This document shows, piece after piece, positions 27,678-29,461 of a DNA stretch of 51,534 nt. Where the stretch lies: the NCBI GenBank assembly GCA_905479565.1, contig CAJQMY010000053.1, positions 1-51,534 on the forward strand. Direction: 5' to 3'. Under the pieces are notes generated by a model. That model saw only the letters and a program-made list of their open reading frames with translations. It was not told the origin of the DNA and ran no database searches. This DNA comes from an uncultured Candidatus Nitrosopumilus sp. (GTDB lineage Archaea > Thermoproteota > Nitrososphaeria > Nitrososphaerales > Nitrosopumilaceae). Within the stretch, counting starts at the first letter, position 1. Every line of letters starts with the position of its first letter. A program made the translations under genes and the position numbers.

Positions 27678-28319
27678 TTAAATATATTTGCTAGTAGTAG
27701 CTTCTTGAGTATCTGTTGGAACTGAAGGGAACATTTGTCCTGTTGAACTTTCAGCAACAGCAGCGGCTTCTTTTAAGATACTTTCAGATTCTGCATTGGT
27801 TGTTTCATCCATCCCAAACGCTGCATCACCTGAGAAACTTTCTGTCATAAATCCGCCAAGCATTTCTGCCATTTGACCAATTTCTTGCTCAGCTCCTGGC
27901 ATAACTTTTCCAAGCGAAGATTTTAGGTTTTTCATTAATCCCATTGTTGGCATTATAGCTACTACAGTATCTCCAAGATCACTGAACGTAGTTAATCTTA
28001 ATTCTATTTGTTCTAATGCTATTCTAGCACTACTCAAAATTTTTGTCACTTTTCTTACTTCAGCTAATTCATTTCCTAGAACTTTGCTTGCCTGAGTATC
28101 ATGATTTTGTGTTGCAATTACAATTCGTTGGAATAATTTTGCATCACGTTCTTGTAAACTGGATAACATAGTGTCTAATTTTTTAATTTGTAATTGTAAT
28201 TTTTTAATTCCCTCCTGAACTCTTGGTTTTAAAGCTCCTTTAGGCTTGACAGTATCAGTAATTTTTTCACTAATTCCAGGCTTTGCTTGTTTTGACCATT
28301 TGTCAGATAATCCAGGCAT
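27678..28319 (-). CDS. cdvB: CdvB-like ESCRT-III/Snf7 protein (paralogue 2)
   Basis: 213 residues from ATG 28319; an upstream TTG/ATG extension to 28370 has no counterpart in the paralogue. MPGLSDKW aligns with MPNFDSTW of the copy at 6572. Shared core phrases are KPKGALKPRVQEGIKKLQ against KPQGALKPRIQ, and ERDAKLFQRIV. The acidic C-terminal part with SESILKEAAAVAES and MFPSVPT again matches. It should polymerise at division or remodelling sites with CdvA/CdvC partners. Two paralogues only about 20 kb apart on opposite strands suggest specialised subunits. Confidence 0.9.
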   Translation of the reverse strand: MPGLSDKWSKQAKPGISEKITDTVKPKGALKPRVQEGIKKLQLQIKKLDTMLSSLQERDAKLFQRIVIATQNHDTQASKVLGNELAEVRKVTKILSSARIALEQIELRLTTFSDLGDTVVAIMPTMGLMKNLKSSLGKVMPGAEQEIGQMAEMLGGFMTESFSGDAAFGMDETTNAESESILKEAAAVAESSTGQMFPSVPTDTQEATTSKYI

Positions 28320-28497
28320 GAGTTTGATTTTAAAATATGTACTTAATTTCCTGTGTAAAGAATGGTTCACCGATTATAAAAAATTACTAGCTAAAATTGA
28401 GAATTTTGAATATTAGTTCGTGATAAATCAAATTTCATAAATGATATAAAAAGAAGTTTCTAATCAAAAAGCGTGATTTCAAATTAAAATAAAAAAT

Positions 28498-28788
28498 TTA
28501 GAAGGTATCTTTAAAATTCATTAATTTTATAATTCCATCATGTTTTTTATACTCTAACTGTAAATTGTGTTCCAATCGTTTCATAGTTTCTAAATGAATT
28601 TTCTGGTTTTTTGATTTAGGATTTTCTAATTCATATTTTTTATGCTCTTCAAGTCTATTGATTCTTTTTTCATTGATTTTTAACTGCTGATCTAGTAAGT
28701 CTAACTGAATTTTACAATTTTTACATAATAATGATCCATCTGTTTCAATATCAAATACAGAACCACATATTTTACAAATAAAATCCAT
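28498..28788 (-). CDS. Zinc-ribbon coiled-coil protein
   Basis: 96 residues. CKIC at 5-8 and CKNC at 23-26 form a compact zinc ribbon. It is followed by a charged helix (LDQQLKINEKRINRLEEHKKYE) that should form a coiled coil. Possibly a small nucleic-acid or protein adaptor; no family named. ATG start. It sits alone between the CdvB paralogue (same strand, 178 bases downstream) and a secreted protein gene on the other strand. Confidence 0.65.
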   Translation of the reverse strand: MDFICKICGSVFDIETDGSLLCKNCKIQLDLLDQQLKINEKRINRLEEHKKYELENPKSKNQKIHLETMKRLEHNLQLEYKKHDGIIKLMNFKDTF

Positions 28789-28865: not shown

Positions 28866-29300
28866 TTGTTGAGTAAAAAAATTATTGCAATTCCCATAAT
28901 TGCCATATTAGCAATTATTTTAATAAGTTTTTCATCAAATGAAACAAGTGAAAAGAAAAACATTTTATTTCACGTAACCCTTGCAGATCCTGATCTTTAC
29001 ATTAACGGTGTCTATACTGAAGAATTTATTCTTGAAAAAAATGAATATTTTTTTAGATTTGTTCCAAATGGTAGCAGTCCAAAAATATTATCAATTACAT
29101 TAAATGGAGATACATTTGATTATTCTGAAGACTTTGAGCTGATAGGTACACCACATCAAACCGAAATCTCGGAATACTTCACATGGGATTATGATGGACA
29201 GAAAAAAATTATCAATTCGGAAACGCAAAAAGTTTCAATTGCAATCAATCCAAACGGTCAAACTCTTGGTTCTGTATCTGTAGATATCTTGGAAAATTAA
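28866..29300 (+). CDS. Membrane-anchored extracellular protein
   Basis: 144 residues beginning at tandem TTG codons. An N-terminal hydrophobic helix (IIAIPIIAILAIILISF) acts as anchor or uncleaved signal. A beta-rich domain follows, with LFHVTLADPDLYINGVYTEE and FFRFVPNGSSPK, resembling a carbohydrate- or Ig-like fold. There are no cysteines and no motif I can name. Its 3' end abuts the T-run that ends the candidate RNA on the opposite strand. Confidence 0.7.
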   Translation: MLSKKIIAIPIIAILAIILISFSSNETSEKKNILFHVTLADPDLYINGVYTEEFILEKNEYFFRFVPNGSSPKILSITLNGDTFDYSEDFELIGTPHQTEISEYFTWDYDGQKKIINSETQKVSIAINPNGQTLGSVSVDILEN

Positions 29301-29302
29301 AA

Positions 29303-29430
29303 AGGCGTGAACCCCTTAGTTACAGAACAATGAGAGATTTCCTCTCTTAGTCAGTTGTTCAACAACTGATGACCTTTTCCGTTCTGCGGGGTTACGCAGG
29401 TTTAGTCGATAGAAATTATACCTTTCGACA
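29303..29430 (-). ncRNA. Candidate stand-alone structured RNA (about 130 nt)
   Basis: The minus strand here has promoter, structure and end signal in the right order. TATA box TTTAAATA (29454-29461) is about 27 bases before the first helix. A 5' hairpin pairs 29405-29412 with 29422-29429. Then comes a three-way junction: closing stem 29305-29315 with 29388-29397, inner stem 29323-29328 (CAGAAC) with 29381-29386 (GTTCTG), and hairpins GAGAG/CTCTC (29332-29346) and TCAGTTG/CAACTGA (29351-29369). Transcription would end on the TTTTT opposite 29299-29303. It is richer in G+C than the flanks and has no coding frame. Not tRNA, 5S or an RNA family I recognise. Confidence 0.6.
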
Positions 29431-29453
29431 TTAATTACAATAGGAACTTTAAG

Positions 29454-29461
29454 TATTTAAA
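29454..29461 (-). promoter_or_regulatory. TATA box of the candidate RNA
   Basis: TTTAAATA on the minus strand, inside an A+T-rich stretch, about 25-27 bases before the first paired base of the RNA at 29429. Spacing fits archaeal TBP/TFB initiation. Its role is inferred from position. Confidence 0.4.

Follow-up and report, generated by a model that had tools for sequence, protein, structure and literature searches.

Does a G+C-richer island in a gap of an archaeal contig encode an RNA with its own promoter and end, and if so, how widespread is that RNA and what might it do? The question concerns a contig of an uncultured Candidatus Nitrosopumilus sp. (GenBank CAJQMY010000053.1, from a genome of 1.42 Mb); the window, as the term is used here, is the whole stretch of 51,534 nucleotides that was analysed. 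Nitrosopumilaceae are among the most abundant archaea of the sea and are central to nitrification, and their RNA regulators are, to our knowledge, poorly known.

Here, we report that the island is part of a previously unreported, real RNA gene, near-universal among the searched genomes of its family. A first-pass annotation had proposed an undescribed structured RNA with a promoter and an end of its own. That proposal holds, but it was incomplete, as it overlooked that the 5' hairpin is at the same time a leaderless open reading frame (mini-ORF), mostly of nine codons.

Promoter and fold of the RNA gene in the window

G+C content is 0.45 over positions 29300-29399 and 0.12-0.25 directly upstream of the RNA, in agreement with the description of the locus as a G+C-richer island. 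The 5' hairpin and three-way junction that had been drawn for it could be located helix by helix on the minus strand, where the predicted TATA box (TTAAATA, 29460-29454) and run of five T (29303-29299) are also found. The elements are the following:

29460-29299, minus strand: RNA gene with all its elements, from TATA box to T-run
about 29431 to 29299, minus strand: predicted transcript of ~130 nt, transcription being inferred from sequence only
29454..29460, minus strand: TATA box TTAAATA, inside TTTTAAATA, 29 nt upstream of the mini-ORF start codon
29402..29431, minus strand: mini-ORF of nine codons, leaderless, ATG TCG AAA GGT ATA ATT TCT ATC GAC TAA, encoding MSKGIISID and a stop
29405..29429, minus strand: 5' hairpin, stem GUCGA/UCGAC, between the start and stop codons of the mini-ORF
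29305..29397, minus strand: three-way junction domain, closed by helix P1
29397-29388 with 29315-29305, minus strand: closing helix P1, ~10 bp
29387-29381 with 29328-29322 (element 29322..29387), minus strand: helix P2, GCAGAAC/GUUCUGU, leading into the junction
29369-29362 with 29358-29351 (element 29351..29369), minus strand: hairpin P4, UCAGUUGU/ACAACUGA
29346-29342 with 29336-29332 (element 29332..29346), minus strand: hairpin P3, GAGAG-GAAAU-CUCUC, its loop resembling a GNRA tetraloop plus U
29299..29303, minus strand: T-run of five T after the last helix, probable 3' end

The minus-strand segment 29298-29431 folds at -43.7 kcal/mol (z -5.06), a value that no shuffled sequence equalled. 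Folding of a 151-nt stretch gave z of -3.9 and -4.0, with the plus strand almost as good; since both strands fold, the strand cannot be chosen by folding alone, and it is the promoter, the mini-ORF and the T-run that choose it.

Distribution and copies

In blastn searches, 35 of 61 relatives carried the stretch, all of them of the same genus and often with two copies per genome. A covariance model built from 49 copies was positive in 125 of 300 members of the order, these spanning 17 genera of a single family, and in 0 of 168 other genomes. A second model, which included divergent members, found the RNA in 202 of 400 members of the class; with family and non-family genomes counted from its match list, these correspond to 202 of the 221 sampled family members and 0 of the 179 genomes outside. 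Searches of over 40 genomes had stricter filters, so that the large searches may have overlooked remote homologs in other families. Named records with the same RNA belong to Nitrosopumilus, Nitrosarchaeum, Nitrosomaritimum and other Nitrosopumilaceae, from which we infer that the family in question is the Nitrosopumilaceae. Among the few sampled members of four of its genera (g34, g35, g37 and g65), the second model detected no copy; this may reflect either loss or strong divergence, and genomes of g35 are only 0.8 Mb in size.

Genomes carrying the RNA usually have 2-3 copies. The second copy in the genome of the window (class B; L002, L009) lies at C8:18222-18359 (minus strand), is 71% identical by blastn and encodes the peptide MSLVIKSGD, and a third paralog was detected by the second model in many complete genomes. 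This third class (L229-L232, L225, L240-L247) differs in its inner helices and has a P1 of 11 bp; MEKRANFTA is an example of its mini-ORF peptides. In several of its copies, pairing is possible between the 3' half of the ORF and the nucleotides directly downstream of the stop, as far as the beginning of P1. One locus (L191; G276:C184:10090-10522) holds a tandem pair of RNA copies ~300 nt apart. The RNA also turned up on metagenome-assembled contigs labelled Hyphomicrobiales (L157), Chitinophagaceae (L161) and Nitrososphaeraceae (L085), with scores near 122-128 bits, like those of Nitrosarchaeum copies; these are probably misbinned contigs or wrong labels.

Covariation and structural conservation

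Covariation was assessed on 49 copies aligned by sequence alone and not fitted to the structure. Under the proposed structure 93.2% of cells hold standard pairs, both sides have changed in 13 of 34 pairs, and the covariation score of 0.179 exceeds that of all 500 shuffles (mean 0.100, sd 0.005); sliding the partners by 1-3 columns brings pairing down to 35-46%. The compensatory changes on which the first-pass annotation had staked its structure are thus present, and its argument that promoter, fold and end in register exceed chance is borne out by homologous copies across the family, whose promoters keep the register and whose helices covary.

In the 5' hairpin, pairs 10-30, 11-29 and 12-28 vary compatibly, the last with 25 cells changed on both sides, and z for this hairpin is below -1.5 in all class A and class B copies and in 81% of the rest, class C excluded. 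P1 is the closing helix in 107 of 107 copies if only the sequence downstream of the mini-ORF is folded. P2 is mostly invariant (99.7% of cells paired) and P3 is 100% paired, with A-U in place of G-C in 11 copies; covariation is strongest in P4, where both sides have changed in all seven pairs counted. The P3 loop is GNRA-like plus U in most copies across genera (GAAAU, GUAAU, GCAAU, GGAAU), from which a tertiary contact may be inferred, and most copies end in CGCC followed by a T-rich tail.

A mini-ORF of conserved start, stop and length

The mini-ORF was followed through 107 distinct copies that had been selected with the covariance models and without regard to the ORF; 105 were scored by script, and two (L200 and L212) were read by eye. 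All 107 have an in-frame start 28-32 nt downstream of the TATA box (28-29 nt in 102) and an in-frame stop 0-5 nt ahead of P1, with a gap of 3-4 nt in 97 of the 105 that the script scored. The ORF is nine codons long in 100 copies, eight in 6 and ten in 1. Starts are ATG (100), GTG (4) or TTG (3), and stops are TAA (66), TAG (24) or TGA (17).

The TATA box of the scripted copies matches TTAAATA at 7/7 positions in 93 and at 6/7 in 12, and its distance to the start codon is 28-29 nt in 100 of these 105. TATA-like motifs of 591 protein genes from the same loci peak 26-30 nt before ATG. Because the mini-ORF has the spacing of a protein gene, the transcript should start at or just before the AUG. 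Leaderless mRNAs are bound by archaeal small ribosomal subunits (PMC11698992).

Several comparisons bear on how strictly the two ends of the ORF are kept. The first base of the stop is T in 107 of 107 copies and the other two are only ever A or G, with TGG, expected about four times if both sites were independent, absent; each adjacent in-frame triplet occurs in 12 to 34 forms. When the ORF was left out and a tree made from the core alone (~105 nt), 25 changes of stop codon and 6 of start codon all lead to other stops or starts and none to sense; these parsimony counts are tied to that short tree, and overcounting is possible. A stop at codon 8-10 occurs in the other two frames in only 0/97 and 3/97 copies. 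Shuffled 5' regions satisfy this start-stop grammar in 5.3 of 121 cases on average (maximum 13), a control that is only indicative because the sequences are related. The grammar persists in L211 (ATGGCGGAAAAGTCAAGACAGATGACTTGA), a region that shares little with other copies, and in L227 and L235, which have GTG starts and 5' sequence unlike the rest. One clade (L038, L058, L059, L060) has lost the first ATG (to ACA or GCT) and carries TTG or GTG as its second codon, which looks like a shift of the start by one codon. A pattern independent of any model (TTAAATA, 20-22 bases, ATG, 24 bases, TRR, 3-5 bases, GCGYG) was found in 57 of 250 members of the order, all within the family, and in 0 of 168 others, and the reversed control pattern had no match anywhere in the same genomes. 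As judged by comparison of the copies, what is kept is the start, the stop, the frame, the length and the distance to P1.

The encoded peptide varies. Across 98 nine-codon ORFs dN/dS is about 1.2, every position after the first takes 7-11 different residues, and the peptides of L211, L212, L227 and L235 are unrelated. No purifying selection on the peptide is apparent in these data, with the reservation that dN/dS rests on about eight codons only and is not a clean test of neutrality, because the hairpin constrains the same bases. Since start, stop and length are conserved though the peptide is not, we propose that passage of a ribosome over the mini-ORF is part of the working of the RNA, which the pattern suggests and does not prove.

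Genomic context

Gene order was examined for 137 distinct copies. In 74 of them, those of class A, the RNA abuts a convergent gene that belongs to the same family throughout; its representative in the window is a 144-residue ORF at 28866-29300 on the plus strand, without a Pfam match, whose stop codon is overlapped by the T-run. A divergent member of the short-chain dehydrogenase family stands next upstream in 58 class A copies, class B copies have other neighbours that are again mostly convergent, and a same-strand gene follows next downstream in a cluster of only 6 copies. Because most copies face convergent neighbours, and these are not the same from one paralog to another, the RNA is, by the evidence of gene order, a stand-alone gene and not a cis leader. 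Two further ORFs of the window lie beside it on the minus strand, each with a sub-threshold Pfam match: 27678-28370 to Snf7 (ESCRT-III, perhaps a Cdv protein) and 28498-28788 to a TFIIB-type zinc ribbon.

A putative translation-gated RNA

The gene, its structure, its conservation across the family, the start-stop grammar and the lack of a cis target are well supported, as far as sequence comparison can establish them; transcription, translation, gating and action in trans are inferred. Our preferred reading is a trans-acting structured RNA gated by translation of its mini-ORF, to which we assign a probability of about 0.5. The ~130-nt transcript would begin at or within a few bases of the AUG; a ribosome would initiate on this leaderless codon, read the nine codons while unfolding the 5' hairpin, and terminate at the stop codon 3-4 nt ahead of P1. 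The leading edge of a ribosome with a stop codon in its A site lies roughly 9 nt beyond the stop, and given the 3-4 nt to the start of P1, the terminating ribosome would cover several bases of the P1 5' strand. An open, ribosome-bound state and a free, closed three-way junction would be mutually exclusive, which would amount to a simple translation-gated switch, although the opening of P1 by the ribosome is inferred from geometry and no data attest to it. The RNA may then act in trans on a target as yet unidentified, as a regulator or as an RNA associated with the ribosome, its shape either reporting on translation or modulating it while the peptide is irrelevant; ribosome sequestration is a further role that such a switch could have.

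The most specific form of this proposal remains tentative, at somewhat less than even odds: translating a leaderless, peptide-indifferent nine-codon ORF of fixed length would be the input, the terminating ribosome would open P1 and switch the trans-acting junction, and the RNA would be a new class of stand-alone RNA, serving these ammonia-oxidising archaea as a sensor or governor of translation. Against the gated reading in general stand the absence of expression and ribosome data, the lack of a known target or partner, and the different inner helices of class C.

Alternative explanations

The RNA could also be a non-coding housekeeping or regulatory RNA in which the fold alone acts, its start and stop codons being translated incidentally or protecting the 5' end. 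The strong conserved structure with its near-invariant core, the conservation of the hairpin within the ORF in classes A and B and the lack of conservation of the peptide would all be expected of such a molecule; however, fold constraints alone do not predict a start-stop grammar kept through 31 changes on the tree, nor a length divisible by three in all 107 copies, and we consider this explanation unlikely while keeping it in serious view. A conserved leaderless ORF could instead mark a small mRNA for a functional nine-residue peptide, stabilised by a structured 3' untranslated region, and translated small ORFs are known in archaeal sRNAs (PMC11456600, PMC12482152). Such a peptide would nevertheless have to tolerate a dN/dS of about 1.2, 7-11 residues per position after the first, unrelated sequences in the four divergent copies and less conservation than the RNA structure around it, which makes this role improbable.

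In a cis attenuator, translation of the mini-ORF would decide whether transcription stops at the T-run or continues into a gene downstream. Leader ORF, structure and T-run do recall bacterial attenuators, and a ribosome at the stop codon would, by inference, block P1 near the T-run, but the downstream genes are mostly convergent and differ by paralog (one family in the 74 class A copies, others in class B), and the few copies with a same-strand gene downstream leave this option more doubtful still. Virtually no credence remains for the view that there is no RNA gene and that the island is a G+C-rich fold arisen by chance, a mobile element or the relic of a transcription terminator: the folding of both strands is what can be said for it, whereas syntenic family-wide presence, promoter register and the lack of a match in the viral collection scanned all speak against it, and covariation and distribution already contradict it.

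Implications

The family has, in nearly every sampled member and in 2-3 copies, an RNA gene missing from the RNA library searched, in which a covarying three-way junction is combined with a mini-ORF constrained in start, stop and length and free in peptide. If translation of the ORF does control the fold, this would be a new kind of RNA switch, trans-acting and gated by a leaderless ribosome, for which we know of no precedent. In cultured Nitrosopumilus, ribosome profiling and probing of the structure could be aimed precisely at this RNA.

Relation to known RNA classes and closest systems

The RNA had been said to resemble no recognised family, and indeed neither the window nor any of 12 further copies reached the gathering score of an Rfam 15 family; a permissive Rfam search gave nothing credible, its best hit (GlsR10, 13.9 bits where 75 are needed) being a chance match. 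RNase P RNA (RF00373) and SRP RNA (RF01857) each have their single match in this genome elsewhere (C13 and C18), and ARAGORN found 0 tmRNA genes in the window. Inspection of the alignments revealed neither the conserved C and D boxes of a box C/D guide RNA nor the ACA box that an H/ACA guide RNA has 3 nt from its 3' end. A K-turn at P4 was discarded, as class B copies have the three-base bulge and lack the tandem G-A pairs, and so was a Shine-Dalgarno-like GAGG in P3 as ribosome anchor, which L203 and L205 do not retain. A pattern scan of viral contigs, made with a viral origin in mind, gave no match. A leader-peptide attenuator lacks a regulated same-strand gene immediately downstream in most copies, and a dual-function sRNA would call for a conserved peptide, which the dN/dS of about 1.2 and the varied residues do not provide, though the hairpin confounds this somewhat. 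No report of the RNA was found in the open literature, subscription papers being outside the scope of the search.

Among the closest systems, the trp, his and erm leader-peptide attenuators place a short ORF beside alternative structures, with the position of the ribosome setting the fold and a T-run at the end, and they are cis leaders of the genes that they control. The present RNA shares the short ORF beside an RNA structure and the terminal T-run, translation of the ORF being inferred from its conserved start-stop grammar only, but stands alone and faces convergent genes. tmRNA is a structured RNA with a stop-terminated ORF of roughly ten codons and with a tRNA-like domain; the likeness lies in the structured RNA carrying an ORF of that size, whereas here there is no tRNA-like domain or CCA end, and the ORF sits at the 5' end with an AUG start. 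Methanosarcina mazei sRNA154, a regulator of nitrogen metabolism, comes near, since it too is an archaeal sRNA that stands alone and has a leaderless small ORF close to the 5' end, but its 20-residue protein is reported to be highly conserved in Methanosarcina (PMC11456600), while here only the nine-codon length, the start and the stop are kept. In Haloferax volcanii, ribosome profiling found small archaeal RNAs on ribosomes, which resembles what is inferred here, most of them without evidence of coding potential, and the abstract of that report describes no fixed nine-codon ORF (PMC12482152). None of the systems compared fits, and unless the mini-ORF is incidental, which would leave a new family of ordinary structured RNA, we regard the architecture as categorically new.
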